The notes beneath the pieces are model-generated. The model ran no database searches and was not told the DNA's origin. It saw only the letters and a list, made by a program, of their open reading frames with translations. Below are positions 920 to 21,744 of a DNA stretch of 21,744 bases, piece after piece. The first letter of the stretch is position 1; every line of letters starts with the position of its first letter. Source of the DNA: a virus; the IMG/VR virus record IMGVR_UViG_3300025417_000103, positions 1 to 21,744 of that record; one strand, given 5' to 3'. A program made the position numbers and the translations under genes.

Positions 920-1224
920 TGGCAGTCTCATATTCACAAAACAGTCCATATTATACTACTAGTGTTTATAATAATTTATTTTTAGATATTATGGACAACA
1001 GAGATATTACTCCCGATCCAACTGATGTGTATTGGCAAATTACTCAAACTTATCATATGAGACCTGATATGTTAGCATATGACTTATATGAGAACAGTCA
1101 ATTGTGGTGGGTTTTTGCACAAAGAAATCCTAATATGATTAAAGATCCATTGTTTGATTTTGTTGCAGGAACATATATATTTCTACCACAACTAGATAAT
1201 TTAAAAACACAGTTAAGTTTATAA
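919..1224 (+). CDS. 53: Baseplate wedge subunit gp53-like
   Basis: A 101-residue protein with the hallmarks of the gp53 family: an N-terminal YYTTSVYNN segment, then DITPDPTDVYWQITQTYHMR, DMLAYDLYENSQLWWVFAQR and NPNMIKDPLFDFVAGTYIFLP. The Y-x-L-Y-x-N-xx-LWW core and the following 'D P ... F ... G ... I ... P' pattern are LysM-like, as in other phage baseplate proteins. T4 gp53 is about twice as long (near 196 residues), so this is a short version consisting mostly of the core domain. In T4, gp53 joins the wedges to one another around the hub. The start is supported by the AGGAGG site, and the gene sits between a tube-cap gene and a hub/spike pair, as expected in the central baseplate cluster. 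Confidence 0.85.
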   Translation: MAVSYSQNSPYYTTSVYNNLFLDIMDNRDITPDPTDVYWQITQTYHMRPDMLAYDLYENSQLWWVFAQRNPNMIKDPLFDFVAGTYIFLPQLDNLKTQLSL

Positions 1225-4072: not shown

Positions 4073-7000
4073 ATGTCAGCTAATGAAAATCTAATTAAAT
4101 TATTTGGTGCATATAGCACTAACAAAGATACTAGGGGCGGTGCTCAAACTATCCCCAGTGCAGTTATAGGTATTGTTAAAAACAATATTGATCCAACTCG
4201 CAGCGGTAGAGTTGAAGTATACTTAGTAAGAGGTAATAGTAGTGATCAGGATAATCCTGCTAGTTGGGTACCTGTTAACTATATGAGTCCTTTCTTTGGA
4301 TATACGACAAATGGGGCAAGTACTAGTGATGATGGAAAATATTTAGGTAATCCTAATAGTTATGGAATGTGGATGACACCCCCTGATGTAGGGACTCAAG
4401 TGTTATGTGTATTCTTAAACGGTGATCCTAACTTTGGTTATTACATAGGTTCATTACCTTTACCTGGATTAACATTCATGGTGCCTGCAGTAGGTGCAAG
4501 CGATTATTTGTTGGCTAATTCAAGTGAAGCACAAAGTTATGGTGGTGCTAAAAGATTACCAGTAACTGAATATAATAATGCAAATAAAAAATTAGATGAT
4601 AGCCCCGGAGTTGTTTATAGTCCAAGACCTGTACATAGTTATCAGGCAGCTATATTATTCAAGCAGGGATTGATAAAAGATACTGATAGAGGAACTATTG
4701 GTAGCAGTAGTATGCGTGAAAGTCCTAGTAAAGTATTTGGTATAAGTACACCCGGAAGACCTATATACAAGGGTGGATATACTGATGATACAATTGCTGG
4801 CGCTATTAAATCTAATGCACCAGATGATAGTTTTCAAATAACAGGTCGTAGAGGCGGACATAGTTTTGTTATGGACGACGGTGACGTTACGGGCAAAGAT
4901 CAATTAATAAGATTACGTACTGCTACGGGTCATATGATAATGATGAATGACTATGCTCAAACATTAATTATTATGCATGCCAATGGTCAAAGTTATATTG
5001 AATTGGGTCGTGAGGGTACAATTGACATGTACTCTACTAACTCAGTAAACATTAGAACTGAAGGTGATTTAAATTTACATGCAGATAGAAATATAAACAT
5101 AAATGCAGTTGGTGATTTAAGTATGTCTGCTAAAAATCTTAAAATGGAAAGTTTAAAAGATACTACTCAATATGCTGGTGCAAAATATAATGCTTACGCA
5201 AAAGGCGACTATACTATTAAAGGTGAAAGTAATTATGCAGTTGATGTCGCCGGCGATTTAGGATTAAAAAGTTCAGGTACTGTATTTTTAAACGGTGGAA
5301 AAAATAAACCAAACATTAAAATTAATAGCGGTACTATATCAGTAACACCACCTAAGGTATCTCAACATAAAGTAAATGCATTATCAGATACGTTGTATGA
5401 TAGTACTAAAGGATATAACTCTGCACCTGCTTATATGTCTAGTATTGTTAATCGTGCACCAGCGCATATGCCATGGGATATGGCAGGTAAAGGGGTTGAT
5501 GTATCAACAAATAAAAGTTCTAGCGCTGCTTTTGCTGCATTACCATCTAGTCAAATACAAGCATTAAATAGTGCAGTTGGTACTGCTTCCGCAGTTACTA
5601 ATCCTAACTTAATGGCAACAGTACCTGATCTAAGCGCAGCAGCAAACGCATCAAGCACATTAGATAAAGGTGCAATGACAGGTTTAGTGTCACAAATGGC
5701 AGTTGCAGCACAAAACGGACCAGCCGGAGCAGCAATAGCATCAGTCGGTGGTGCAGGTGCAGGAGTACTAAGTAATGGAACAACATCAACCGCAGTAGTA
5801 GGTGCATTTGCTATGTCACCAAATCAATTAGAAGATGCTGGTGTAATTAAACCAGGATCAGCTACAGCAGTAAATGCAAGTGTCGCTAAAGGTGCAAGTG
5901 TTCAAAATGCAATGCCAGATAATATCTTTACTGGACAAAATGGTACGAATAGTTTAAATCAATTTCTTAACAACACGCCTGCACAAGCTGCCGGTGCTGC
6001 AAACTTATTGAATAAGAGTGAAAGTAGTTTGATTAGTTCAGGTATACTTTCTGGAAACGAACATTCTACACAAACAAGTGGATTAATTTTAAGCACTGCT
6101 ATGGCAGGATTAGGTCCAACTGCAAACTTTTTATCAAGTACAGGATCGGTACCCGGGGTATCTGCTCTTACTGGTCAAGGATTAAGTACGTCAGTAGCAA
6201 ATCAATTAAATGGTTCTCCTGCTGATTTGATTGCTGGTGGTAACGCTGCCGGCGCACTTGCGGATAAAGCAATGTCAACATTAAGCGGTGTACCCTTAGG
6301 TGGCATTGATGTAACCGCAGCACTTAAAGGTTTTGCGTCTGGATTATTTTCAACTGTATTAAGCGCATTCAAAAGTTTTACGCCTAATGTACCACAAAAT
6401 TTATCTACTATATCAAGTGCATCAGGTGCATCATCATTGGCTAGTGGAGCAAATTTAGGTGCTTTGGCTGGTGCAGCGGGGCAAGTAGCAAGTCAGGCAG
6501 CAAGTGCAGGTGTTCAGGCTGCACTTGCAAGCAATCCAGAATTATCAGCGGGGCTAGCAATCGCAAATCAAGTAAGTAGTGGAAAACCAATTACTGCTCA
6601 AAGTCTTGCCGGCGCAGCTATTTCAAGTGAAGTACCAGGTGTTAATCCAACTGCCTTAGGTGGCGTACCAAGTGGTGCAGTAGCACTAGACACAAGTAGT
6701 ATTCCGTCAAGTGCAGGAACACAAAATATATCTGGTGCTATAAGTTCATTAGCCGGCGCAGCAGGTACTAGTTCTTTGGGAACAAGTATAGCATCTGCAC
6801 AAAGTGCATTGGGTGGTAGTTCATTATCTGATATAGCAGGGGCAGGGTTAGCACCAAGTCAATTAAGTAGTCTTAATGCATTGTTTAGTACAATAGGTGG
6901 AGGAGCATTAAATATTAGCTTACCAAGTATTAAAACTAATAGTTTTGATACCAGCGGTATGGCCTCAACTACAAAAGGTTTAACTGTCCCCGGAGTTCCA

Positions 7001-7243
7001 CCTTTGTCTTTTGGTACAAAGAATACTGCACCGGCAACTACTTCAAGTGATATCATATCACTTAATCAACAGATAGATGCAGCAGAAGCCGAATGTAAAA
7101 AATTATTTGCTGCATATGAAACAACAAAAGCACAATATGGGTATGAAAGTGCTCAAGCAAAAGAGGCCCTACACCAATATTCAGTGGGTGTACAAAAAGC
7201 AGAAGATTTAGAAGAAAAGTTATCTAAAACTAAAGCAGTATAA
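4073..7243 (+). CDS. 5: Baseplate central spike, gp5/VgrG-like, without lysozyme domain
   Basis: A 1,056-residue protein. Residues about 27-132 form an OB-fold typical of gp5/VgrG: AVIGIVKNNIDPTRSGRVEV, then SWVPVNYMSPFFG, PPDVGTQVLCVFLNGDPNFG and YYIGSLPLPG. Residues about 262-415 resemble the spike's triple-stranded beta-helix: GHSFVMDDGD, LIRLRTATGHMIMMND, then short alternating repeats such as INIRTEGDLNLHADRN-like strands (SVNIRTEGDLNLHADRNINI, AVGDLSMSA, AVDVAGDLGLKSSGTV). The roughly 130 residues between the two show nothing like the T4 gp5 lysozyme. Residues about 485-950 are a long Ala/Gly/Ser-rich extension; within it 578-690 (SPNQLEDAGVIKPG, FTGQNGTNSLNQFL, SSGILSG) looks like a discrete helical module. 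The end (about 996-1056) is a charged coiled coil. It would trimerise under the hub and pierce the outer membrane. Assignment is firm for the N-terminal half; the extension's function is unknown. Confidence 0.87.
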   Translation: MSANENLIKLFGAYSTNKDTRGGAQTIPSAVIGIVKNNIDPTRSGRVEVYLVRGNSSDQDNPASWVPVNYMSPFFGYTTNGASTSDDGKYLGNPNSYGMWMTPPDVGTQVLCVFLNGDPNFGYYIGSLPLPGLTFMVPAVGASDYLLANSSEAQSYGGAKRLPVTEYNNANKKLDDSPGVVYSPRPVHSYQAAILFKQGLIKDTDRGTIGSSSMRESPSKVFGISTPGRPIYKGGYTDDTIAGAIKSNAPDDSFQITGRRGGHSFVMDDGDVTGKDQLIRLRTATGHMIMMNDYAQTLIIMHANGQSYIELGREGTIDMYSTNSVNIRTEGDLNLHADRNININAVGDLSMSAKNLKMESLKDTTQYAGAKYNAYAKGDYTIKGESNYAVDVAGDLGLKSSGTVFLNGGKNKPNIKINSGTISVTPPKVSQHKVNALSDTLYDSTKGYNSAPAYMSSIVNRAPAHMPWDMAGKGVDVSTNKSSSAAFAALPSSQIQALNSAVGTASAVTNPNLMATVPDLSAAANASSTLDKGAMTGLVSQMAVAAQNGPAGAAIASVGGAGAGVLSNGTTSTAVVGAFAMSPNQLEDAGVIKPGSATAVNASVAKGASVQNAMPDNIFTGQNGTNSLNQFLNNTPAQAAGAANLLNKSESSLISSGILSGNEHSTQTSGLILSTAMAGLGPTANFLSSTGSVPGVSALTGQGLSTSVANQLNGSPADLIAGGNAAGALADKAMSTLSGVPLGGIDVTAALKGFASGLFSTVLSAFKSFTPNVPQNLSTISSASGASSLASGANLGALAGAAGQVASQAASAGVQAALASNPELSAGLAIANQVSSGKPITAQSLAGAAISSEVPGVNPTALGGVPSGAVALDTSSIPSSAGTQNISGAISSLAGAAGTSSLGTSIASAQSALGGSSLSDIAGAGLAPSQLSSLNALFSTIGGGALNISLPSIKTNSFDTSGMASTTKGLTVPGVPPLSFGTKNTAPATTSSDIISLNQQIDAAEAECKKLFAAYETTKAQYGYESAQAKEALHQYSVGVQKAEDLEEKLSKTKAV
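5527..6916 (+). repeat. Ala/Gly/Ser-rich low-complexity region of the spike protein
   Basis: This part of the spike gene (residues about 485-948) codes for runs such as GALAGAAGQVASQAASAG and ISSLAGAAGTSSLG. The 9-mer GCCGGCGCA recurs at 6248, 6608 and 6752, each time encoding Ala-Gly-Ala, and stands out against the AT-rich background. It is degenerate rather than a tandem array. Confidence 0.6.
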
Positions 7244-7255: not shown

Positions 7256-7705
7256 ATGGCAACATACATAGGATTCAGTACTCAACACGTAGAAAATATA
7301 AGATCGACCGGACAACCCAGGGGGATTAATAACTCTGTTGGAACAAGCAATCAAACTGTTAGAACCGGAAAGAATTTTAGAAGCGTAGATGAACAACTAG
7401 TTATACAAGACTTTATTAATTCATTGAATATAACACAAGGTGAAATACCCGGAAACCCAGCATATGGGACTATTCTTTGGAGCTTTATCTTTGAACCAAA
7501 CACAACTGATGTAAGAACTGCCTTAGAAGAAGAAGTTACCAGAGTTGTTGCAACTGATCCTAGAATAACATTAAACACTTTAACGACTACTACATATGAG
7601 GCTGGTATTATGATGGAATTGGAGCTTGCAATAAATCCATTCAATAACCCCATTGACTTATCAGTAACATTTGATCAAGCATCAGGAACCGCAACATTAA
7701 GTTAA
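7256..7705 (+). CDS. 25: Baseplate wedge subunit gp25
   Basis: A 149-residue protein, close to the size of T4 gp25 (132 residues). It has the gp25/gpW family signature: NSLNITQGEIPGNPAYGT, then a LWSFIFEPN strand-turn, a helix with a conserved acidic run (ALEEEVTRVV) and DPRITLNTL, followed by a C-terminal beta hairpin (GIMMELELAINPFNNPIDLSV). The FEP and DPRI motifs are the family core. gp25 sits at the sheath-baseplate junction and, with gp6 and gp53, forms the core bundle of the wedge that passes the trigger to the sheath. Its place just before gp6 fits. The Shine-Dalgarno AGGA supports the start. Confidence 0.92.
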   Translation: MATYIGFSTQHVENIRSTGQPRGINNSVGTSNQTVRTGKNFRSVDEQLVIQDFINSLNITQGEIPGNPAYGTILWSFIFEPNTTDVRTALEEEVTRVVATDPRITLNTLTTTTYEAGIMMELELAINPFNNPIDLSVTFDQASGTATLS

Positions 7706-7749: not shown

Positions 7750-10700
7750 ATGGCAACAAGTTCAAGACAAAGTAATATATTTGGTATAAACGATTGGAAA
7801 ACATTATATCAAACATACAGTTCGGCTGATTTTCAAAGCTATGACTTTGAAAGCCTTCGCAAGAATTTTGTTGATTATTTACGCATAAACTACCCAGAAA
7901 CTTTTAATGATTACGTAGAAAGTAGTGAATATGTTGCATTGCTAGACATTATGGCTTTTATGGGCCAAGCATTAAGTTTCCGCGATGATTTAAACACACG
8001 TGAAAACTTTATTGATACTGCCGAACGTAGAGATAGTGTTATCAAACTTGCAAACTTAGTTGGTTATAACCCACAAAGAAACTTGGCAGGTCAAGGATTT
8101 TTAAAAGTAACAAGTATACAAACTACAGAACAAATCACAGACATTAATGGCATTAATTTAAGTAGTCTTGCAGTATTGTGGAATGATCCTGCTAATCCAA
8201 ATTGGCAAGATCAATTCAATACAATTATTAATGCTACATTAGTAAGCGCACAACGTGTTGGTAAACCGGGCAACAGTCAAACATTGCTTGGGGTAAAGAC
8301 AGACGAATACAGTATTCAAATTCCTACTAGTGCAACACCTACTTCTAGCTTTGGTGCTACTATAGATGGTGTAAGTATGAATTTTGAATGTGTTAGTATG
8401 ACAAGCGTTAATAGCAATTCATTGTATGAAAAACCACCAGTAAGTGATGGTACATTTAATATACTATATCGCAATGATAATTTAGGATTTGGTAGTAATA
8501 ATACCGGATTCTTTATGTATTTTAAACAAGGATCACTAAGTACATATCAATTTAATATAGCCGAACAGATTAGCAATCAAATAGTTGACATTAACATTCA
8601 AGGTATTAATAATACCGATACTTGGTTGTACGATGTGGATCCTACTAGTAATGCTTTGATCGCATGGAAACAAGTTGACAGTATATATGCACAACAAAAT
8701 TCTACTAATGCACAAATTTTTAGTGTAATTAGCAGATTCAATGATCAAGTTAGTTATGTGTTTGGTGATGGTACTTTTGGACAAATGCCAATTGGTAATT
8801 TTGTTGCATATATTCGTGCGGGTAATGCATTAACATATAATATAAATCCAAGTGATTTCAGTGGTATTGCTGTTAATATTAATTATTTAAGTAGAACAGG
8901 ACGATCAGAGACACTAACATTAACACTAGAATTGCCTTTACCGGTAACTAATGCACAAGCACGTGAGACATTGCAAAACATTAAAACACGTGCACCACAA
9001 CGCTATTATACACAAAATCGTATGGTTAACGGAGAAGATTATAATAACTTCCCATTCACTTTATACAGTAGTATTATTAAAAGCAAAGCACTTAATCGTG
9101 TAAGTGTTGGTATTAGTAGAAACTTTGATTTATTAGACCCAACTGCAAAATACAGTTCAACAAATGATTTTGCAGATGATGGTGGCCTATATATAAATGA
9201 AGATGTAGGCCATGTTAGTTTCAATCCAACTAACAGTAGTGAAATTGTCAAGTTTTTATCAGAGACATTAAGTGTAATATTAGACAGTCCTAAAGTATTG
9301 CAGTATTATGCTGCACATTATGTATGGATGCAACAATCAGCTACGATAGATGCTACAAATACATATTATTGGAATCAGAGTGGATTCAATTCAAATCAAA
9401 CAAATGGATACTTCTATAATAGTTATGGTCCTATACAAATAGGCGTTTATACTAGCGGTAACAGATCATACATTACAGAAGGTGCAATGTTACAATTTGT
9501 TGCACCTAGCGGATATTATTTTGACAGTAACAATCAATTAGTAGCGGGTATTGCTAATCCAAGTAATATTACTTCTATTTGGACTAGCGTTGGTAGTGTT
9601 ACAGGTGATGGCTCAAACAACAATGTTGGTAACTTAAGTAATGGCACAGGTCCAGTAGTGTTAACAAATATTGTACCTAATGGGTGTATTCTAGTTAATA
9701 TTATTCCAAGTTTTACCAACATATTACCTGTCGCAGTAACGCAAGAATGTATTACATTGATTAATCAAAATCAAAGTTTCTCATTGTTGTTTAATAATAC
9801 ATTGTTAGCTAATCAAAATCGTTGGACAATAAGCACATACAATGATACAAATTGGTTTGTAAATTTCTTAAGTTTGGGTGGCAATAGTTATACTGTTACA
9901 TATAGAAGCCTTAGCTATTATTTTGGTAGTGTAAATGAAGTTAGATTTACTTATGATGCTAACAAAATTGTATTTGATCCACTAAGTGGAAAAATAATGC
10001 AAGACCAAGTTAAGATATTACAAAGTAATACCAATCCACTAAGTAACTGGCCATTAGCAAAAGACACTACATTGTATGTGGTTGGTCAACCAGTAGAAAC
10101 TGATGGATACGTTGATGATTATGCAGTTGAAGTATCAACGTATGATCCTAATGTTCCGGGAGTGTTACGTGATCCTCATTTCTTCCAAGATATTACCGGG
10201 TATCAAACAGGTTCAACCAATTTACAGTTTTTCACGTTCTTCCAACAAATTACTGATGCAAACTTGTTAACAAGATATGTAATGTTACCAAGCAACAGCG
10301 TTGTTTTTAGCTATGGAACACAACAAGATATTAGTGTAGTTATGTATGAATACCCAATCAATACAATTTTCTACGCAGTATTTGAAAACAATTTTTATCA
10401 ATCACAATACGACACCACTACTAGTGCAAATATATATAATTTATATTTAATAACTGGGTATACTGCTATGACAGGTCGTCAAGGATTATATTTCCAATAT
10501 AAGCATATTAGTGATGAAACTACTAGAATTAACCCATCAAGTACAAATATTATTGACTTGTACCTTGTAACACAAAGCTATTACACATTATATCAAAATT
10601 GGATTAATGATACTACTGGTGTTGTAGCGGAACCTGACTTACCAACAATTGATGAATTAACTCAGGCATATAGTAATTTAGATAACTACAAGATGTTAAC

Positions 10701-11118
10701 TGATAACATTGTTATGAATAGTGTTCAATTTAAACCATTGTTTGGTAGTAAAGCAGCACCAAACTTACAAGCAACTATTAAAGTTATACCCAATCAAGGA
10801 ACCACTGCAAGCAATAGTGAAATTATTAGTAGCGTTTTATCTGAAATGAATAATTATTTTAGTATTGATAATTGGGGATTTGGTGACACGTTCTATTTTA
10901 GTGAACTTGCAGCATACTTACATAACAAATTAGGAGACTATATCAATAGTGTGATATTAGTTCCTAACGATCCTAATTTAACATTTGGTGATTTATATGA
11001 AATAAAGTGCTCACCTTATGAGATTTTTGTAAATGCAGCACAAGCAAGTAACATTGTAATTATTTCAGCATTGACCCCGGCGCAATTGCAAACAAGCGCA
11101 AGTACTAGTTCAAGTTAA
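7750..11118 (+). CDS. 6: Baseplate wedge subunit gp6
   Basis: A 1,122-residue protein, against about 660 in T4 gp6. The N-terminus carries the gp6 core: SYDFESLRKNFVDYLRINYP, EYVALLDIMAFMGQALSFR, DDLNTRENFIDTAERRDSVI and KLANLVGYNPQRN. A second family signature lies near residues 415-470: APQRYYTQNRMVNGEDYNNF, SSIIKSKALNRVSVGISRNF and LLDPTAKYSS. The C-terminal part (from about residue 990: LTDNIVMNSVQFKPLFGSK to GDLYEIKCSPYEIF) is also baseplate-J/gp6 like. The extra length is Asn/Thr/Tyr-rich beta sequence in the middle (about 530-980). gp6 dimers form the continuous inner ring of the baseplate and change shape on sheath contraction. The ribosome site is weak (AAGAGA, 7738-7743). The identification is secure; what the middle insert does is unknown. 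Confidence 0.92.
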   Translation: MATSSRQSNIFGINDWKTLYQTYSSADFQSYDFESLRKNFVDYLRINYPETFNDYVESSEYVALLDIMAFMGQALSFRDDLNTRENFIDTAERRDSVIKLANLVGYNPQRNLAGQGFLKVTSIQTTEQITDINGINLSSLAVLWNDPANPNWQDQFNTIINATLVSAQRVGKPGNSQTLLGVKTDEYSIQIPTSATPTSSFGATIDGVSMNFECVSMTSVNSNSLYEKPPVSDGTFNILYRNDNLGFGSNNTGFFMYFKQGSLSTYQFNIAEQISNQIVDINIQGINNTDTWLYDVDPTSNALIAWKQVDSIYAQQNSTNAQIFSVISRFNDQVSYVFGDGTFGQMPIGNFVAYIRAGNALTYNINPSDFSGIAVNINYLSRTGRSETLTLTLELPLPVTNAQARETLQNIKTRAPQRYYTQNRMVNGEDYNNFPFTLYSSIIKSKALNRVSVGISRNFDLLDPTAKYSSTNDFADDGGLYINEDVGHVSFNPTNSSEIVKFLSETLSVILDSPKVLQYYAAHYVWMQQSATIDATNTYYWNQSGFNSNQTNGYFYNSYGPIQIGVYTSGNRSYITEGAMLQFVAPSGYYFDSNNQLVAGIANPSNITSIWTSVGSVTGDGSNNNVGNLSNGTGPVVLTNIVPNGCILVNIIPSFTNILPVAVTQECITLINQNQSFSLLFNNTLLANQNRWTISTYNDTNWFVNFLSLGGNSYTVTYRSLSYYFGSVNEVRFTYDANKIVFDPLSGKIMQDQVKILQSNTNPLSNWPLAKDTTLYVVGQPVETDGYVDDYAVEVSTYDPNVPGVLRDPHFFQDITGYQTGSTNLQFFTFFQQITDANLLTRYVMLPSNSVVFSYGTQQDISVVMYEYPINTIFYAVFENNFYQSQYDTTTSANIYNLYLITGYTAMTGRQGLYFQYKHISDETTRINPSSTNIIDLYLVTQSYYTLYQNWINDTTGVVAEPDLPTIDELTQAYSNLDNYKMLTDNIVMNSVQFKPLFGSKAAPNLQATIKVIPNQGTTASNSEIISSVLSEMNNYFSIDNWGFGDTFYFSELAAYLHNKLGDYINSVILVPNDPNLTFGDLYEIKCSPYEIFVNAAQASNIVIISALTPAQLQTSASTSSS

Positions 11119-11132
11119 CACAGGCATAAAGA

Positions 11133-14100
11133 ATGGCAACAATTATAAGAACCATTGATTTCTTACCAGAGATATTTCGCACCAACACCAATGATCAGTT
11201 TTTATCCGCAACATTGGATCAACTAATTCAACCACCGGACTTTAGAAAAGTTCAAGGTTATATTGGTAGTAAATTTGGTTATGGTGTAAAGAGCACAGAT
11301 CAATATGTACAAGAACCTACACTATCTAAAACACGTTATCAACTAGAACCTAGTGTGGTCAATCTTGATCCAATTACTGGCAAGCCAACCGATATGATTA
11401 CATATCCTGAAATGATTGATGCCATAACACTAGAAAGCGGGATAACACCTAATCATAATAACTTATTCAGTAATCAATTTTATAGTTGGGATAGTTTTGT
11501 TGATTTAGATAAATTAATTAACTTTGGTCAATACTACTGGGTTCCACAAACACCTGAAAGTGTAGAGATAACTACGTCAACTCAATTGTTAAATGCTAAT
11601 ATAGCAGTTATTTCAAATACAGATAACACATACAGTATTGACTTCAATGGTACTACATACTCTGTAGAAAATCCTACTCTTACCTTAGTAAGAGGTGGAA
11701 CATATACATTTAACGTAAACCAAAGTACACCTTTCTATATTCAAACATTACCTGGTGTTGATGGGGTAGATCCTGCAAGTACTAATATTAGTACAAGAAA
11801 TATTATAGGATTAGATTTTAATGGTGTATCTAATGGCACTATGACATTTACTGTGCCAGTTGCCGGCACTTCTGGTTACAATTATGCAAGTAGCATATCA
11901 GTTGATTTAGTATCAAATCTACCATTCAATGAGGTTAATGGAGCCCCGTTAAGTTTATTAAATGGTATTGATGGTGTTTCTAGTGTTGATGGAAAAACTG
12001 TAATATTTTATGGAAGTAAACCGGGCGAGATAGGAAGCATAGGTGATTATTTTGACGGTGATAGATTTGATAATCCTAATTCTAGTTTTTCAGGAAGTAT
12101 AGACCAACCATTGACAGGTACTATATTTAAAATAAAAATAGTTGGGTCTGATAATGATGCAGTAATTGAGTTAGAACCATATCAAGTTATACCTAATGAT
12201 ACATTGATCACAATCACTTATGGTGTACAATATATCAAAACAAATTTTGTAAAGAACAGTCATGGTGTATTATCTTTACTGCCAGCAGATACATCAACAT
12301 TGAATACATTATATTATCAGGATGGGTATAATGCTGATAAAGTAGGTAAGATAAAAATCATTGATAGTGTTGCTAGTTCTGTATTAGATGTTAATGATAT
12401 TTTATATAAAAGTAAGTATACAAGCCCTAACGGAATAAAATTTACTAATGGACTATTAGTTAAATTTACTGGTAATATAGTACCAGAAAAATATTTGAAT
12501 AATAACTACTACGTAGAAGGTGTTGGATCTAGCATACAGTTAATACCAGTTACCGAAATGATAACACCTGAGCCATTTACTAGCACAGTAAGTGAACCTT
12601 TTGATGGTGCTAACGATTCATTTGATCAAAACAGTTTTGGTAATACAATTAATTTACCAATAACTCCTGATTATCTTACAATCAATCGTTCTAGCATTGA
12701 TAGAAATGCATGGTCAAGAAGTAATCGTTGGTTTCATGTTGATGTATTAAACACTATTGTAGCAAACAATCTAACAAGTCCTATTGCTAGTGCTGCTTTA
12801 AAAAGTGGCTCTGCTAGAGCAAAAAGACCAATTATTGAATTCTATCCTAACCTAAAGTTAATATATAGTGGATTAAATGGTAAATTGCCAGTAGACTATA
12901 TTGACACTACAACAACTAACGCACTATCTATATTAGCCGGAAAAGACCCAAGTAGTTATCTTCCAGATGGAACTATAACAGGTAATGATACAGTAAATGC
13001 TGAACTTGTAAATTCATTTTTATTTGATGGCTGTAGAATTATATTTGCAGCTGAATCACCGGAAGCTAGAAGTAAAATTTATGTAGTTAACATTGCTACT
13101 ATTAATGGACAAAGACAACTGACTTTCAACGTTGCCGGAGACGGGTATGTAAATCCAGGTGATCAAGTTGTAATCACTAATGGCCAAACTAACAAAGGAT
13201 TCAGTTTTTATTATAACGGTAGTGATTGGATTAATGGTCAAACAAAAACTAGAGTAAATCAACCACCGTTATTTGATGTGTTTGATTCAAACAATATTAG
13301 TTTTAGTGATGGTAATTACTATCCGGGAACTAATTTTAATGGATGTACATTATTTCAATACTTACCTGGCACAGGAACTAAAGATCCTATTCTTAATTTT
13401 CCTATTCAATATAGTGGTGTAGGTAATTTGAATGATGTTAATTTTGTGTGTACGTTAAACACAGATACATTTAATTTTGTTAACAGTGGAACATCAGTAA
13501 CATTACCAGTAAGTGATGGATTTGTATTTAAATATACTGATCCTAATAATTACACTAGACAAATTGGATGGCAAACTGCTGTTGGTAAAAGTTTTCAATA
13601 TCAAATTTTTAGATATGAGTATACTGGTGCTGCTGGTTTACCAATAGTTAGCTTTACCATTGATATACCAATGAAAGATGGCACCACAACACCATGGCCT
13701 ACTAGTGTTGTGTATATAAACAATAACAGAATTGCTAATACAGAGTACTATGTTACAGTTAGTAATGGATCAACTGTTGTTAATTTAACTACATCATTGA
13801 ACACAAATTCACTAATCACGATAATGATATATAGTGATGAAATAAGTAGTACTGGTTATTATGAGATACCTAGCAACTTAGAACAAAATCCATTCAATGA
13901 TGCAATCACTACTATAAATGCAGGTGATATCAGAGGTCACTATAAGAGTATTTGTAATAACGTATATAATTTTACAGGCGATCCGTTTGGTGCAAACAAT
14001 TACAGAGATTTAGGAAACGTTGTACCATACGGTACGAGAATTACACAAAACAGCGCAAGTTTAGTAACTGCAGCTGCATTCATTAGAAGACAAGAAACAA

Positions 14101-17100
14101 ATTTCTTTAACAGTATCAGCTATAATTCTATTGAGTATACTAAATTTAAAGCGTTACTATTAAACACGGTTTCTAATCAAGATTATACTCCTTATAACAA
14201 TGCACCTGACATGTTAGACGAAGTATTAGAAATCATAACTTCAACAAAAACTACATCAAGTCCGTTTTTCTGGAGTGATATGATTCCTAGTAAAACACCG
14301 ACTTATGTTAATGCATATACGTTTAAGATAGGAATATCAAATACTGTATATCCATTACAAAGAGTATATGATTTTAAAAATGCAAATTATTATAGCGTTT
14401 TGTTATATGTTCAATATACAAATAATGGTATAGTTCAATATAAACAACTGATAAAAGATATTGATTATTTTGTTAATGCAGATAATCCATACGTGTTACT
14501 AGCCACACAATTGAATGATGGTGATATTGTTGTAGTTAAAGAGTATACACAAACTTATGGAAGTTATATTCCAAGTACTCCCACTAAAGTAGGATTCTAT
14601 TCTGCGTATGTACCAGAAGTTGTATTAGACCAAACTTACTTACAACCTACTCAGTTTATCAGGGGGCACGATGGAAGTCTTAGTAAGTTATACGGAGATT
14701 ATGATCCATTAACTAATTTCTTTAGTGATCCTAGAGATAGTTTATTATTTGAATTTGAAAATAGAGTCTTTAATAATCTTAAAATAGCTAATAGAATTCC
14801 TGTAGATTATTATGATGTTTTCCCCGGGCAGTTCAGAACTACAGGATATAAACAGTCAGACTTATTTAAATTATATAACGTAGGTGTTTTAAATTGGGTG
14901 GGATTAAATCGTATTGATATTGCTACTCAGTACTATGACCAAACTAACGAATATACATGGAACTATCTTGGATCAAAAAACAAACTAACAAATACTAACT
15001 TCAATCAAGGTAGTTGGAGAGGTATATATCTTTGGTTGTATGATACTGCAACGCCCCACGACACACCATGGGAAATGTTAGGCTTTACTATTGAACCTAG
15101 TTGGTGGATAGATAGATATGGTCCTGCACCATATACAAGTAATAATACATTATTATGGACTGATTTAAGTAATGGTTATATCTATAATAATGGACAACCT
15201 TATGTTGACAGTAGATTTGCTAGACCAAGATTATTAGATATTTTACCAGTAGATAGTAATGGTAATCTATTAAGCCCATTTGAAACAGTTGTTGGTAACT
15301 ACAACGCAAAAACATTTAACACAAATTGGGTAGTAGGAGATATGGGTCCTGCTGAATATAGTTATCGTAAAAGTAGTACATGGCCATTTGATTTAATGCG
15401 AATATATGCATTAACAAGACCTAGTGACTTTTTTACATTGGGGCTAGACTTAGATGTATATCAATACTATAGCGAATTCAATCAATACTTAGTATATGGT
15501 AGATTAAGAACTCCACCAAATCTTAAAAATACACAGTTCTATGGTCATGATGCAAACAATGCATCACATAGTTATATCAATTGGATAGTTGACTATCTAA
15601 ATCAGTATGGAGTAAATGGTACTACTATAATTGAAACTTTGTTTGAAAACTTAGATGTAAGATTAACTTATAGAGTCAGTGGTTATAGTGATCAAAATAA
15701 ACTAAACTTTATTATTGAAAAGGGATCACCTAATAGCACAAATACTTCATTAATGATTCCTAGTGAAAACGTTAATGTTATCTTACACTCAAATGAACCT
15801 AATGATAGTATAGTATACAGTTCAGTAATTGTTCAAAAAACAAGTACTGGATTCAAAATATTTGGAAATAGTCAGAATAAAACATATTTTGTAAGTTACA
15901 ATCCTTTCGCTAATGGAAAAGTAACACCTATCACGGTAATAGACTTAACAGTAAATGCCCCTATACAATTTAGTGATCAAATTAATTATACTGCCTATGG
16001 TACTGAACTATCACTAACTGATTTAGTTAATTTCTTATTAGGATATGGTAATTATTTAGAAACTCAGGGAATGATTTTTGATGACATACAAAATGGTACT
16101 CAATTAGATTGGTATCAAATGTGTGCTGAGTTGCTATACTGGGTTAGAACTGGATGGGAAGTAGGTAGTGTTATTAACTTAAACCCATGTGCTAATCAAA
16201 TTCATATAGTGACACCTAACGGAATCATACAACCTTTCACATACTTACAAGATAACTTTATTTTAAATCAAAATTTAGTACCTATCAAGTTAAGTGATAT
16301 GGCAATTTATAGACAAAGCAATACTTTTACTGCTAAAGTTTTGACTAACGGTGATGCTATCAGTTATTTTAAAGCAGATATTAGTGCTATAGAAAACGCA
16401 GTAATCTTTGATAATCAAACATTATTCAATGATGTAATATACAATTTGATTACAGGATTACGTCAACAACGTTTATATCTAAGAGGTAGTAAAACTAATC
16501 AATGGGATGGTACGCTTTATGCACCTGGATTTATAATTAATTCAGACAATGTGCAAGAATGGGCGCCCAATACAAAATACAACAAAGGTACTATCGTAAC
16601 ATATAAACGACAGTACTTTATGGCTAACCAAACGGTTATTGCACCTACAACTACATTTAACTACAATGATTGGCTATTAACTAATTATGGTAAAATAGAT
16701 AAAGGGATACTACCTAATCCTAGCACACGTGCAAGCGAAACTAATTTCTATTACGATACATACAGATCCACTATAGATACCGATGGAGAGTTATTACCAT
16801 TTAGTTTAATAGGATTTAGACCTAGAGATTATCTAGCACAAGCAGATTTAAACAATATATCTCAAGTAAACTTCTATCAAAACATGATTGAAGAAAAGGG
16901 TACATTAACTGCAGCTAATAATTTATTAAATGCAACAATTCAAAATAATGCAATGCAGTATGATATATACGAAAATTGGATGATATTGAATAGTAGTTAT
17001 GGTGGAGTATTGAATCGTAACTTTGTAGAATTTACATTAGACGAATCGTTATTAAACGGCAACCCCTCAATAATAGGATTGATTAATGGTAATAATATTG

Positions 17101-20100
17101 ACGAAGCCAATCAACAAGTACCATTAACTAAAATTGCTAATTATGGTAGAATGTTATCAGACACTAATTTACTACCAGTAGATACTAGCAGTATGGTTAA
17201 TAGTTTGCCGGACGCAGGCTATGTTAATTTAGATGATGTTACATTATATTCTTATACAGTTGAAAGATTAGACAATGCTAGTATCTATTCTGTGTATGCT
17301 AATGATTATATTTGGATAGCTGATAATCAAAGTACATGGAAGATATTTACTCCTGTAAGTTTGAGTTGCCATATAACATCAGTAGCTAACAATCTTAACA
17401 ATACGTGTGTACTTACAACGACTATTCCACATGGTTTAAGTCAATATGATGTAATTGGTATTGCACATTATGATTCACGTATTGATGGATTCTATACAGT
17501 CCAACAAATAGTTAGTAATACGTCTGTGTTGGTTAATTTAACCTTATCTAATTCAACTACTAATATATCTTTTAGTAATTTTGGATTGTTGTATAAACTT
17601 AATAATATGAGAGTAAGTGATCCTACAAAGATCAATTCACTACCATTATTATCAAACGAATTCACTTATACTAATGTATGGGTAGATAAAGCGAATACTA
17701 ACGATTGGGCACTATATCAAAAAGTTATTAATTATAATGATAGCAATTTTGATTTATTCAGTTTAAATAACGGTGCATTAGGTAGTTCAGTAGCTTATGT
17801 TCCTAAATTAGGTTATTATGTTTCTGACCCGATCAAAGGTAAAGTTTACAAATATATCAAAAGCGGTCAAGGATATATTCAAACAGATACTATAACGCAT
17901 GGTGTTGGGTTTGGTACACAAATGGCTCGCAATGATGAATTTTTAATCATCAGCGAACCAAATGATAGCCAAAGTAATTTGTACATTTATCGTATAGTTC
18001 AACTTCCTGAAGTAGAAGCATTAGTAGAAGAACAAATTATTCCAGTAGTGAATAAGTATGTTGGTACTAGTATGGCATTTAGTGGTGATGGTAACTACTT
18101 ATTTGTGGGCGCACCAAAGATTAATAGCGTAATGTATTTTAACAAACAAGTTGATTTTGCATACATTCCGTTTACAAGCACATTTACATTAACATCTACG
18201 GTACAAGTTACACATGGAAATTCGCAGATAATTATTAATTTAAATTCGTCAAGTGATACTTATTTTGAAAATGAAATTGGTAATGCTATTGGTCAAGTAA
18301 TATATATTAATAATGTTTCATATAGCATATCAGGTCAAGCCGGTAATCAAATTACTTTAAGTTCTAACTATACAGGTACTACCGGAACTAATGTCTCAGC
18401 GTACATTAAAGTTTACGAAAATGCACCTGTAAGTGCTTCAACTAATCCATTAGATAAATTCTTTAAAGTAAGAGGTAATGTAATACCTACATTTACCCCA
18501 GGTAAACGTACTGCGTTTGTGCAGTATAGTCAATATGGCAGTTCAGTATTGTATGGATTTGGTTATGATGCACAAGCAGGTTACAACTTAAATGGTTCAT
18601 ACGATCCAAACAGTGCAGTTTATCCACCAGCACCAGCATCCGGTGATCCTGCATTCAATCAAAAATATAGAAGCTATTATTTTGTTATAACAGGAAAAGT
18701 TGATTTATCATCTGTAGTATCAGTTACTATTTCAATAGATCCAACCGTTGACAAAGCAAACTACACAGTAAATTCTAGTAATAGTACATACGATAGTGTT
18801 ACAAATACAACAAAGATTTATATTTCTCAAGCTGAGTTTAATGGTATAATTTATGAAGAATTATTCTATACTTTAGACCATTATAATATATATAATTTAA
18901 CAATAGGTAAAGGATCAACTGCACCTATTTTAACACCAACATACATATTAGGTGTGGGTAACTATGTAACAGTTATTACTGCTGAATATGATAGTACCAC
19001 TGATACTAGTACAGTTCACACAGTTGAACGTATAGGATATAGCATAACACCAAGTACAATTTCAGCTATTAATGGTTCAAATACATACGCACAGGCTGTT
19101 AATAATCAGTTTAATATTCTTGGATTAATTTATATCAATAGTAGCGCAGAATTAAATCAACCTATACCTGGTTCAACGGTACCAAAGATTCAAACTCAAG
19201 GTTCTGATAACTTTGGTGCAAGTATTGCAGTTAACCATGATGCAACTAAAATATTCATTGGATCTCCAACATACCATGTACAATTAAGTAGTGATCCTGA
19301 AGTACCACCCGTACCAAATGTAGGTGTTGTATGGGTATACGACAGATTAGTTGAAACTTGGCAAGTTCAATATACTCCCCAAAATTTTGAGATATATGCA
19401 GTAGTTACGCCGTGGATGCCTACAAGCAATATGATATTAACTATCAACGGACAGCCAATTAGCCCCACAAAATATAAAACATTTTTATACACTACAATTA
19501 TTGGTCCACGTGTTAAAGCAGGTGACGTTATCACTATAAGTGATACTATACTTGTATTGAGTGACCAGTTAACAAGCTACCAAGACATTAATGGTGTAAT
19601 ACCAAATCAACAATTTGGTACAAGCATTAGTTGCAACAGTACTGGAAGTGAAGTTATAATTGGATCTCCTTATGATTTGGGTGTACAGGGACAACAAGGT
19701 GCTGTGTATCGTTTTACCAACGAAGGTAAACGCTTTGGATTTGTTACTGCATTAATTGCAGCAAATAATCAATTGGGTGCAACTGATATATTCATTAATG
19801 GCTATAACGTAATGATACCTACTGGCGATGCATTTGCAATGGCAGAGGCTATTAATCTTGCACAGATTAATAATGTATTTGCATATACTACACAGGATGA
19901 TAACGGAAGTGATCCTAGATTAGTTATCAGATTGATTAATACTGATTTAGGTCCCGCTAACAACAAACTTAACATAACAGTATTGAATGGTAATTATTTC
20001 TATGAAATGGGAATAGCACCATATACTATAACACAAGTTATAAGAGAACCCCACCCGCAAAATAATAGTCAGTTTGGATATAATATTAAGTTTAACGAAC

Positions 20101-21744
20101 AAAACAGTTTTGTAATAACTTCACCCAGAGCAAATCGTTTTGCTGAAACATTCTTTGACCACGTTGATTCAAATATGCATTACAATACGGTGTTTGATTT
20201 AAATCTTACAACGTTTATAGATTCATTTGATAACGCAGGTGCTGCATATATGTTTGATTATATCAGCCCTTACAATGAGGCTTTATTAAACATAGGTCAA
20301 TATGTTTATGCACAACCTGTTAATGACAATACAAGTGATTATGGTTCATTACCAATGTATGGATCTAGTTTAGACTTTAATAACAATACTGTTATTATTG
20401 GTAGCCCAAAATTTAACACTAGTTTAGCACGAACAATTAATGGAAAATTTAATATCTTCTTTAATAGTACAGGAAATCAAGACTGGAGCGTATTCAGAAA
20501 CAGTTCTCCTGTAGTAGATGTAAACAAAATTCAAAAGATTCAGTTATATAATAACTTAACTGATGAAAATTTAATATCACTAGATTATATTGATCCATTA
20601 CGCGGTAAGATGTTAGGTGGTGTACATGAGAATTTAGATTATATTGGTACAGTTGATCCTGCAGGATATAACAATACAAACTATAAATCAACTTCAATAG
20701 TTTGGAATAGCAATCAAGTAGGTAAAACATGGTTTGATACAAGTTCAACTAAGTTTTTAAATTATCACCAAGATGATATAGCATATAATGCTAAGTATTG
20801 GGCTAACTTATTCCCCGGTAGTACAGTTACTGTATATACATGGATAGAAAGTAGTGTTACACCTGCGTTCTATACAGGTCCGGGCACCCCTTACGATATG
20901 CTAAAGTATACAACATCATACGGTGTTGACACTAATAATAATTTAGTATCATTATATTATTTCTGGGTAAGAGGCACAAATCAGTTAAGTAAAGGTAAAA
21001 CATTAACTGATTCAATTATAGAGCAATATATCGCAAACCCACAAAATAGTGGTATAGCATACATGGCTCCACTACGCCCTGATGCATACGCACTATATAA
21101 TGTGCGTGATTATGTTAATGGATTGAATACAAATATTCACATTGGATTTGGTACTGGTACAGTTGATAATGAAATACATAATAACTTTAAGATTATAAAA
21201 AGTAATTATGCAGATGATTTCTTACCAGGACTACCAACTGCAACAAATACAAGTCCTAGTGGATTATACAATAGATTACTAGAAAGTTTTGCAGGTTTAG
21301 ATGAAACAGGTGCAAACGTACCTAACTTTAGATTGCCTGCGTATATGCAAGTTGGCATTAGTGTAAGACCTAGACAAAGTATGTTTATTAACAGATATAA
21401 TGCATTAAAGAATTATATAGAATTTGCAAATAACATATTAAGTCAGTATACAGTAAGTGAATTTAGCAATCTTACATATTTGAACACTAGCGGAGAATTC
21501 TTTACAACCAGTGATTTATGGTCAAGCGTATACTGGTGGGCTACTGGATATGGCAACACTACAAAAACAAATGCAGAAGTTGGTATATTTGCAGACTTAT
21601 ATAGAATTACACCAAGAGAAGGAATGATTGTAGGTGTAGCTAAGAATGGTCAGGGCAATCGTGAAGTATACTTATACACTAATAGTCAATGGACTAGAAT
21701 TGGTTTGCAAAATGGTACTGTAAAACTATCAGATGTATTATGGG
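11133..21744 (+). CDS. Giant virion structural protein, in the gp7 position (3' partial)
   Basis: The frame opens at an ATG 14 bases after gp6 and stays open for 3,537 codons to the window edge; I read it through and found no stop. T4 gp7, the gene after gp6, has about 1,030 residues, so this protein is at least three times longer. Visible parts in order: an N-terminal RTIDFLPEIFRTNTNDQFL with LDQLIQPPDF and FGQYYWVP (1-145); a cupredoxin-like beta domain (about 161-262); small beta modules; a Trp-rich block near 1310-1360 (PWEMLGFTIEPSWW, RYGPAPYTSNN); a CBM5/12-like motif (1810-1847); a PHGL module (about 2080-2140); and seven FG-GAP-like repeats (2216-3126). Cysteines are rare. No signal peptide or transmembrane segment is seen. 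A large peripheral wedge protein with host-contact domains is the best reading. The N-terminal and Trp-rich blocks recall unnamed giant structural proteins of marine T4-like phages. Orthology to gp7 rests on position only. Confidence 0.85.
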   Translation, partial: MATIIRTIDFLPEIFRTNTNDQFLSATLDQLIQPPDFRKVQGYIGSKFGYGVKSTDQYVQEPTLSKTRYQLEPSVVNLDPITGKPTDMITYPEMIDAITLESGITPNHNNLFSNQFYSWDSFVDLDKLINFGQYYWVPQTPESVEITTSTQLLNANIAVISNTDNTYSIDFNGTTYSVENPTLTLVRGGTYTFNVNQSTPFYIQTLPGVDGVDPASTNISTRNIIGLDFNGVSNGTMTFTVPVAGTSGYNYASSISVDLVSNLPFNEVNGAPLSLLNGIDGVSSVDGKTVIFYGSKPGEIGSIGDYFDGDRFDNPNSSFSGSIDQPLTGTIFKIKIVGSDNDAVIELEPYQVIPNDTLITITYGVQYIKTNFVKNSHGVLSLLPADTSTLNTLYYQDGYNADKVGKIKIIDSVASSVLDVNDILYKSKYTSPNGIKFTNGLLVKFTGNIVPEKYLNNNYYVEGVGSSIQLIPVTEMITPEPFTSTVSEPFDGANDSFDQNSFGNTINLPITPDYLTINRSSIDRNAWSRSNRWFHVDVLNTIVANNLTSPIASAALKSGSARAKRPIIEFYPNLKLIYSGLNGKLPVDYIDTTTTNALSILAGKDPSSYLPDGTITGNDTVNAELVNSFLFDGCRIIFAAESPEARSKIYVVNIATINGQRQLTFNVAGDGYVNPGDQVVITNGQTNKGFSFYYNGSDWINGQTKTRVNQPPLFDVFDSNNISFSDGNYYPGTNFNGCTLFQYLPGTGTKDPILNFPIQYSGVGNLNDVNFVCTLNTDTFNFVNSGTSVTLPVSDGFVFKYTDPNNYTRQIGWQTAVGKSFQYQIFRYEYTGAAGLPIVSFTIDIPMKDGTTTPWPTSVVYINNNRIANTEYYVTVSNGSTVVNLTTSLNTNSLITIMIYSDEISSTGYYEIPSNLEQNPFNDAITTINAGDIRGHYKSICNNVYNFTGDPFGANNYRDLGNVVPYGTRITQNSASLVTAAAFIRRQETNFFNSISYNSIEYTKFKALLLNTVSNQDYTPYNNAPDMLDEVLEIITSTKTTSSPFFWSDMIPSKTPTYVNAYTFKIGISNTVYPLQRVYDFKNANYYSVLLYVQYTNNGIVQYKQLIKDIDYFVNADNPYVLLATQLNDGDIVVVKEYTQTYGSYIPSTPTKVGFYSAYVPEVVLDQTYLQPTQFIRGHDGSLSKLYGDYDPLTNFFSDPRDSLLFEFENRVFNNLKIANRIPVDYYDVFPGQFRTTGYKQSDLFKLYNVGVLNWVGLNRIDIATQYYDQTNEYTWNYLGSKNKLTNTNFNQGSWRGIYLWLYDTATPHDTPWEMLGFTIEPSWWIDRYGPAPYTSNNTLLWTDLSNGYIYNNGQPYVDSRFARPRLLDILPVDSNGNLLSPFETVVGNYNAKTFNTNWVVGDMGPAEYSYRKSSTWPFDLMRIYALTRPSDFFTLGLDLDVYQYYSEFNQYLVYGRLRTPPNLKNTQFYGHDANNASHSYINWIVDYLNQYGVNGTTIIETLFENLDVRLTYRVSGYSDQNKLNFIIEKGSPNSTNTSLMIPSENVNVILHSNEPNDSIVYSSVIVQKTSTGFKIFGNSQNKTYFVSYNPFANGKVTPITVIDLTVNAPIQFSDQINYTAYGTELSLTDLVNFLLGYGNYLETQGMIFDDIQNGTQLDWYQMCAELLYWVRTGWEVGSVINLNPCANQIHIVTPNGIIQPFTYLQDNFILNQNLVPIKLSDMAIYRQSNTFTAKVLTNGDAISYFKADISAIENAVIFDNQTLFNDVIYNLITGLRQQRLYLRGSKTNQWDGTLYAPGFIINSDNVQEWAPNTKYNKGTIVTYKRQYFMANQTVIAPTTTFNYNDWLLTNYGKIDKGILPNPSTRASETNFYYDTYRSTIDTDGELLPFSLIGFRPRDYLAQADLNNISQVNFYQNMIEEKGTLTAANNLLNATIQNNAMQYDIYENWMILNSSYGGVLNRNFVEFTLDESLLNGNPSIIGLINGNNIDEANQQVPLTKIANYGRMLSDTNLLPVDTSSMVNSLPDAGYVNLDDVTLYSYTVERLDNASIYSVYANDYIWIADNQSTWKIFTPVSLSCHITSVANNLNNTCVLTTTIPHGLSQYDVIGIAHYDSRIDGFYTVQQIVSNTSVLVNLTLSNSTTNISFSNFGLLYKLNNMRVSDPTKINSLPLLSNEFTYTNVWVDKANTNDWALYQKVINYNDSNFDLFSLNNGALGSSVAYVPKLGYYVSDPIKGKVYKYIKSGQGYIQTDTITHGVGFGTQMARNDEFLIISEPNDSQSNLYIYRIVQLPEVEALVEEQIIPVVNKYVGTSMAFSGDGNYLFVGAPKINSVMYFNKQVDFAYIPFTSTFTLTSTVQVTHGNSQIIINLNSSSDTYFENEIGNAIGQVIYINNVSYSISGQAGNQITLSSNYTGTTGTNVSAYIKVYENAPVSASTNPLDKFFKVRGNVIPTFTPGKRTAFVQYSQYGSSVLYGFGYDAQAGYNLNGSYDPNSAVYPPAPASGDPAFNQKYRSYYFVITGKVDLSSVVSVTISIDPTVDKANYTVNSSNSTYDSVTNTTKIYISQAEFNGIIYEELFYTLDHYNIYNLTIGKGSTAPILTPTYILGVGNYVTVITAEYDSTTDTSTVHTVERIGYSITPSTISAINGSNTYAQAVNNQFNILGLIYINSSAELNQPIPGSTVPKIQTQGSDNFGASIAVNHDATKIFIGSPTYHVQLSSDPEVPPVPNVGVVWVYDRLVETWQVQYTPQNFEIYAVVTPWMPTSNMILTINGQPISPTKYKTFLYTTIIGPRVKAGDVITISDTILVLSDQLTSYQDINGVIPNQQFGTSISCNSTGSEVIIGSPYDLGVQGQQGAVYRFTNEGKRFGFVTALIAANNQLGATDIFINGYNVMIPTGDAFAMAEAINLAQINNVFAYTTQDDNGSDPRLVIRLINTDLGPANNKLNITVLNGNYFYEMGIAPYTITQVIREPHPQNNSQFGYNIKFNEQNSFVITSPRANRFAETFFDHVDSNMHYNTVFDLNLTTFIDSFDNAGAAYMFDYISPYNEALLNIGQYVYAQPVNDNTSDYGSLPMYGSSLDFNNNTVIIGSPKFNTSLARTINGKFNIFFNSTGNQDWSVFRNSSPVVDVNKIQKIQLYNNLTDENLISLDYIDPLRGKMLGGVHENLDYIGTVDPAGYNNTNYKSTSIVWNSNQVGKTWFDTSSTKFLNYHQDDIAYNAKYWANLFPGSTVTVYTWIESSVTPAFYTGPGTPYDMLKYTTSYGVDTNNNLVSLYYFWVRGTNQLSKGKTLTDSIIEQYIANPQNSGIAYMAPLRPDAYALYNVRDYVNGLNTNIHIGFGTGTVDNEIHNNFKIIKSNYADDFLPGLPTATNTSPSGLYNRLLESFAGLDETGANVPNFRLPAYMQVGISVRPRQSMFINRYNALKNYIEFANNILSQYTVSEFSNLTYLNTSGEFFTTSDLWSSVYWWATGYGNTTKTNAEVGIFADLYRITPREGMIVGVAKNGQGNREVYLYTNSQWTRIGLQNGTVKLSDVLW
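11614..11918 (+). other. Cupredoxin-like beta domain in the giant protein (no copper ligands)
   Basis: Residues about 161-262 show the pattern of cupredoxin-like domains found in marine phage structural proteins: NPTLTLVRGGTYTFNVN, then PFYIQTLPG, and NGTMTFTVPVAGTSGYNYAS. In copper-binding members the 'PF' segment has a His nearby and the last strand carries Cys-His-Met ligands; here these positions are Gln, Tyr, Ala and Ser. The fold is inferred from pattern, and it would serve a structural role only. Confidence 0.5.
16560..16673 (+). other. CBM5/12-like carbohydrate-binding motif in the giant protein
   Basis: Residues 1810-1847 read W-x-P-N-T-x-Y-x-K-G-x-x-V-x-Y, then QYFMANQ, and end in NDW. 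This is the aromatic and glycine pattern of the small chitin-binding type-3 (CBM5/12) module, with the first and last Trp and the Tyr-xx-Gly-xx-Val core kept. It may bind a cell-surface glycan, or be a reused beta module. Confidence 0.5.
17362..17556 (+). other. PHGL-type small beta module in the giant protein
   Basis: Residues about 2077-2141 contain TTTIPHGLSQYDVIGI followed by GFYTVQQIVSNTSVLV. The pattern 'T-x-PHGL-x-xx-D-x-V ... G-x-Y-x-V-xx-V' recurs in large phage tail proteins as a short beta-barrel-like unit. It sits just before the propeller-like repeats. Role unknown. Confidence 0.45.
17778..20510 (+). repeat. Seven degenerate FG-GAP-like repeats (putative beta-propeller)
   Basis: Repeat starts (base, residue): LGSSVA 17778, 2216; FGTQMA 17910, 2260; VGTSMAF 18060, 2310; FGASIAV 19212, 2694; FGTSISC 19614, 2828; FGYNIKF 20073, 2981; YGSSLDF 20358, 3076. 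Each is followed after about 8-12 residues by a strand ending in Ser/Gly-x-Pro or similar: YYVSDP, LIISEP, LFVGAP, IFIGSP, VIIGSP, VITSP, VIIGSP. Most then close with a hydrophobic aromatic strand such as GKVYKYI, NLYIYRI, GVVWVYDR, GAVYRF or GAAYMFDY. This is the FG-GAP_2-type pattern of integrin-alpha-like propellers, and seven copies is the number needed to close a ring. Acidic calcium loops are not conserved. Gaps between repeats vary from 44 to 384 residues because of inserted domains. Confidence 0.75.

Follow-up and report, generated by a model that had tools for sequence, protein, structure and literature searches.

The giant tail protein of a virus recorded in IMG/VR as IMGVR_UViG_3300025417_000103 contains an embedded seven-bladed FG-GAP propeller, an assignment that is well supported by Pfam FG-GAP_2, by a blade HMM, by the AlphaFold model of a compact homologue and by Foldseek comparison. 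Judged from sequence comparison, the propeller appears to be an insertion in one beta-hairpin of the giant. The stretch of DNA analysed in this work (the window, 21,744 nt) comes from this 21.7-kb virus record, and its features are listed in Table 1. A sequence-only reading had picked out seven FG-GAP-type repeats at 17778-20510 and suggested an integrin-alpha-like ring serving as a receptor- or glycan-binding head within the baseplate wedge; these coordinates correspond to residues 2216-3126 of one unbroken frame.

Table 1. Coordinates of baseplate genes, giant protein blocks and propeller elements in the window.
Feature	Residues of the giant	Position	Strand	Basis or remark
gp53-like baseplate wedge gene		919..1224	+	phrog_7145 E 1.7e-25; Phage_gp53 just under cut-off
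gp5-type baseplate hub / tail lysozyme gene		4073..7243	+	context
gp25-like baseplate wedge gene		7256..7705	+	GPW_gp25 above cut-off
Probable gp6-like baseplate wedge gene		7750..11118	+	weak Gp6-like match, under cut-off
Giant tail protein	3537 in window	11133..21743	+	open frame, continues past window end
N-side conserved block	1 to about 2105	11133..17447	+	profile matches, propeller-less jumbo phages
Left hairpin strand NDWALYQK	2190-2197	17700..17723	+	junction comparison with empty sites
Propeller with inserts, seven-bladed, FG-GAP	about 2207-3122	17751..20498	+	blade HMM, AlphaFold, Foldseek
Blade 1	2214-2255	17772..17897	+	blade HMM, AlphaFold/DSSP
Blade 2	2258-2306	17904..18050	+	blade HMM, AlphaFold/DSSP
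Blade 3	2308-2667	18054..19133	+	blade HMM, AlphaFold/DSSP; strands c and d separated by a long insert
Blade-3 insert, 3-4 loop	2340-2657	18150..19103	+	poorly predicted, no family match
Blade 4	2692-2813	19206..19571	+	small beta insert in 3-4 loop (about 2742-2804)
Blade 5	2826-2970	19608..20042	+	FG-GAP core above Pfam cut-off
Blade-5 insert, 3-4 loop	2864-2963	19722..20021	+	
Blade 6	2979-3062	20067..20318	+	conserved 39-residue 2-3 loop
Blade 7	3074-3122	20352..20498	+	strand d from right hairpin strand
Right hairpin strand QDWSVFRNS	3116-3124	20478..20504	+	junction comparison
C-side conserved block	from 3128	20514..21743	+	common to propeller-less jumbo phages

FG-GAP Repeats in the Giant Protein

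Exactly seven FG-GAP-type repeats were found in the giant, between residues 2217 and 3092. The all-blade HMM matched residues 2217-2233, 2259-2276, 2309-2328, 2692-2712, 2826-2846, 2980-2998, and 3074-3092, and it gave seven matches at the same places in each of the relatives L002-L008 (L002 and its two identical copies had one extra weak stray match, far away). No match was detected by this HMM in eight named relatives. Pfam FG-GAP_2 matched blade 5 at 29.6 bits against a curated cut-off of 23 (E 8e-7). The seven repeats of the earlier reading were borne out. Matches to FG-GAP_2 at E <= 0.1 were present in 21 of 26 homologous segments, the strongest one examined being in L107 (E 9.2e-18, three stretches). 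In a held-out-blade HMM test, blades 3, 4, 5, and 7 scored better than 200 of 200 shuffles and blade 6 was weak. Blades 1 and 2 were not recovered from the sequence of the other blades; their assignment thus rests on predicted structure.

The top PDB sequence match of the propeller profile was integrin alpha-4, a weak one (E 0.012). The DxDxDG loops that bind Ca2+ in integrins were not found in the window's propeller, and Ca2+ loops were missing from six of the seven blades across all relatives; a looser pattern was detected in blade 5 only, in 7 of 26 sequences. "Integrin-alpha-like" is therefore an appropriate description of the fold and not of the calcium loops, whose absence means that the propeller is not an integrin. 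The propeller segment had no match in named phages or in bacterial and archaeal genomes, its DNA region had no match, and NCBIfam gave none. Scanning IMG/VR with the propeller as a single sequence gave no match; relatives were obtained from IMG/VR via the conserved block and alignments, and the best 80 of 591 were kept.

Predicted Fold and Structure Matches

The AlphaFold check with inserts kept, proposed in the sequence-only reading, was carried out on the window's own segment with an alignment of 26 sequences. The model reached a pTM of 0.71; pLDDT was 83-95 over most of the blades and under 50 for the greater part of the blade-3 insert. DSSP assigned strands a-b-c-d in blades 1-6 and a-b-c in blade 7. 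Integrin alpha5 was the best Foldseek match of this model (E 7.5e-6); the TM-score was low, as expected from the large loose inserts. The compact homologue L051 was modelled with flanks included (60 sequences) and reached pLDDT 87.6 and pTM 0.82, with no segment under pLDDT 50; its 28 strands make up seven blades of four strands each.

In Foldseek comparison of the L051 model with the PDB, integrins alphaV, alphaIIb, and alpha5 were among the best matches, with TM-scores of about 0.48-0.57 by target length (0.57 for alphaV) and 10-11% identity. The seven-bladed WD40 protein Ciao1, a closed ring, gave a TM-score of 0.65 by target length. The top PDB match by E-value was a yeast Elp123 chain, which superposed poorly (TM 0.17). 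From these structure alignments we infer that the four-stranded blades would be closed in one ring. The best matches in the viral library were proteins of uncultured Caudovirales, and FG-GAP proteins from large eukaryotic viruses came next. Large viruses commonly encode proteins of the FG-GAP type.

The Giant Protein and Its Gene Neighbourhood

Where the frames of relatives are complete, the giant has 5246-6485 aa. It matched 85 phage records and, with an E-value of 5e-256, the family phrog_10938 (annotated "virion structural protein"). Its N-side block gave profile matches in PA5oct, 121Q, RaK2, Atu_ph07, Phosso, SCTP-2, Vibrio 2.275.O, and Hallingskeid; no match was found in the PDB for the conserved block. 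Upstream of the giant lie, in order, the gp53-like gene, a gene for a 947-aa protein, the gp5-type hub/lysozyme gene, the gp25-like gene, and the weakly matched gp6-like gene, the same baseplate gene order as in PA5oct, 121Q, and CBB, where the position of the last corresponds to annotated gp6-like genes. The giant directly follows this gp6-like gene and thus occupies the slot of T4 gene 7. Profile comparison of the giant with T4 gp6, gp7, gp8, gp9, and gp10 did not detect homology (probability 0.7% for gp7), and the label "wedge" is accordingly positional. That part of the earlier reading is favoured by the position after gp25 and gp6 and by mass spectrometry of virions: the giant homologue CBB_236 was detected in this way (PMC5259590), as was phAPEC6 gp245, a 381.9-kDa protein beside a wedge protein and a homologue by size and position (PMC7247149), and the record note for PA5oct gp355, also a giant homologue, lists it as a virion protein by mass spectrometry.

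Some further features of the giants were noted. Two are very large among phage proteins, that of L041 being complete at 6485 aa and that of L044 incomplete at 6808 aa or more. In the L002 giant, S-x-D-G-x-x-W repeats at about residues 4320-4680 (locus about 20890-21970) suggest a second propeller, Asp-box/BNR-like, toward the C-terminus and past the window end; these repeats had no Pfam match. Similar motifs occur in L025, L031, and L051. A weak match to CBM_5_12 (chitin-binding type), under the cut-off, lies at 16557-16634 (giant residues 1809-1834) in the conserved part; Atu_ph07 shows a similar weak match, and the annotation of a PA5oct-type homologue reads chitin-binding type-3.

Insertion Site and Distribution

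At the junction in the window, 918 residues separate the W-x-V strands, from ...NVWVDKANTNDWALYQK to QDWSVFRNS...LDYIDPLRGK. In propeller-less relatives the same flanking strands are spaced by 26 (L124), 12 (PA5oct), 3 (SCTP-2), and 7 (Atu_ph07) residues, the strands of the distant PA5oct, SCTP-2, and Atu_ph07 having been paired by eye. The propeller profile found nothing in the named jumbo phages that share the N- and C-side blocks. Given the sharp junction and the empty sites, the ring has apparently come to occupy the turn of a single hairpin. In the L051 model the second hairpin strand is strand d of blade 7; the ring would thus begin after hairpin strand one (W-x-V/L-Y) and close with strand two (W-x-V-F/L) as blade-7 strand d. 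An insertion with empty-site relatives is beyond what the sequence-only reading could see.

Among contigs retrieved by the N-side block alone and with both flanks present, 69 of 70 carried the propeller (L017-L061 were excluded from this count because they had been retrieved by propeller motifs); it was missing in L124. In a conserved-block tree of 107 rows, with the outgroup set apart by long branches, all carriers fell in one group with 99% support and the named phages fell outside. L124 was nested inside the carrier group, adjoining a carrier (support 89). Carriers in one clade together with a nested L124 fit one gain and one loss, i.e., a propeller characteristic of a single clade of uncultured jumbo phages, with one apparent loss.

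Other sequences occur near the insertion site in propeller-less phages. The giants of Atu_ph07 and Phosso have, at about residues 1650-3200, a segment of some 1100-1500 residues with G-x-GY-x-P repeats that immediately precedes this hairpin, and a beta-rich stretch at about 2100-2350 of the SCTP-2 giant looks LamG-like by eye. Pfam and PDB gave no support for these as modules and we do not claim them.

Variable Inserts and Evolutionary Rate

The 3-4 loops of three blades hold inserts of very different lengths among 26 relatives: 4-318 aa in blade 3, 61-153 aa in blade 4, and 92-186 aa in blade 5. All three therefore lie on one face of the ring. The 1-2 loops show almost no length variation. 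A match to the Flagellin_IN motif was obtained for the blade-5 insert of L126; no family, Flagellin_IN included, matched the blade-5 insert of the window. One subclade has a CBM5/12-like insert in a 4-1 loop, the match being under the Pfam cut-off.

Propeller dN exceeded N-flank dN in 25 of 26 close-pair comparisons (21 of 22 distinct pairs), with a median ratio of 1.9. Since dN/dS was below 1 throughout, the faster evolution of the propeller may reflect relaxed constraint. Aligned identity to relatives was 23-43% for blades 1-4, 43-49% for blades 6-7, and 46-53% for the N-side flank. The 4-1 loops were the most variable class (2.15 bits), followed by the 3-4 loops (1.91). The expected fast evolution on the ring faces was thus seen in part: at the sequence level, the domain as a whole evolves faster, and among loops the 4-1 and then the 3-4 class vary most.

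Discussion

Baseplate propellers have been described before in phages, and that of the jumbo phage phiKZ, in gp131, has seven blades. It has a proposed, unproven receptor-binding role (PMC4901313) and is the C-terminal domain (PDB 4GBF) of a different protein, whereas the one described here is an internal insertion. PDB 4GBF was absent among the 50 best PDB matches listed for L051. The baseplate propeller of phi11 Gp45 has a likely glycan (GlcNAc) site (PMC4901313) and differs in having five blades; Gp45, from a siphophage, is a trimer and a receptor-binding protein in its own right. Like the window's ring, integrin alpha and Pfam FG-GAP/FG-GAP_2 proteins combine FG and GAP-type motifs with seven blades of four strands each; the phage ring differs from integrin alpha by lacking DxDxDG loops, by its domain-sized 3-4 loop inserts, and by being embedded in a tail protein. 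In Atu_ph07, gp320 ("hemagglutinin protein", NC_042013.1 243018-244199), encoded beside tail-sheath genes, has four FG-GAP_2 matches and a structure match at TM 0.65 by target length, but it is a small stand-alone protein (about 393 aa) and the Atu_ph07 giant is without a propeller. The giants of the RaK2/121Q/PA5oct/CBB type (phrog_10938) are homologous to the window's giant in both conserved blocks and share its gene neighbourhood, but they have no propeller and their insertion hairpin is empty. The best viral-library structure matches, A0A6J5L8L4 and A0A6J5L0K2 (E 1.4e-26 and 1.1e-19, 17-19% identity), are deposited as uncharacterized or YHYH-domain proteins, and we found no description of the insertion for them. 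Among the open-access papers searched, none joined FG-GAP to a baseplate or phage tail, and those joining FG-GAP with bacteriophage and virion dealt only with eukaryotic viruses. As far as the databases and open-access papers were searched, the FG-GAP ring in a gp7-position giant, the exact empty site, and the spread through one clade are new.

We consider that the FG-GAP propeller in the gp7-position giant is probably, though by no means certainly, a host-surface contact module on the baseplate. In a jumbo contractile-tailed phage, a ring of integrin-alpha type inserted in the giant at the T4 gp7 position would carry extra small domains on one face, formed by the 3-4 loop inserts of blades 3, 4, and 5; several copies may be displayed at the baseplate rim, where the ring could touch a cell-surface glycan or protein at adsorption; its inserts and loops would then be adapted to the host. 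Such an adhesion role is plausible in view of the variable loops and inserts, the faster evolution, the sub-threshold CBM5/12-like insert, the dispensability of the module in relatives, and the phi11 and phiKZ precedents. The missing Ca2+ loops count against it, and so does the conservation of blades 6-7, which equals that of the N-side flank and fits an internal contact. Propellers are general protein-binding platforms, and the ring could instead be a docking platform within the virion that anchors a tail fibre, a whisker, or a neighbouring wedge, its faster evolution tracking that of the partner. The well-conserved blades 6-7 and 39-residue loop of blade 6 agree with docking, as does the place of the giant within a structural gene cluster; nevertheless, the close relatives L124, PA5oct, 121Q, and RaK2 have giants that function without a propeller, which is therefore not required to assemble the shared baseplate, and insert lengths vary strongly. 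We regard docking as possible but rather doubtful.

Some propellers cleave polysaccharide, phage endosialidases being an example (PMC4901313), and by that precedent the ring or an insert might be an enzyme acting on surface polysaccharide; this is unlikely in our view, as neither Pfam nor NCBIfam gave an enzyme family match and the closest structure matches aligning across the whole ring included no enzyme. It is more improbable still that there is no single closed ring, the number seven being a coincidence and some repeats belonging to separate small domains. The failure to recover blades 1 and 2 from the other blades would be in line with this, as would a window model that is confident in the blades only and has low TM-scores to integrins, but the L051 model, well predicted along its length, matches a closed seven-bladed ring and the same seven repeats recur in all of L002-L008.

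The host-contact reading can be examined further by comparison, because the empty-site relatives and the one apparent loss are natural controls for the role of the module. More speculatively, the hairpin may be a natural acceptor site for adhesion modules, and this clade may have built its main host-recognition ring, with exchangeable inserts, into the wedge, not relying only on separate tail fibres; we put this forward tentatively. A large folded module of adhesion type lies cleanly embedded within a phage tail protein that is otherwise conserved, and the segment of ∼900 residues pinpointed here may be useful for the study of host recognition in uncultured jumbo phages.
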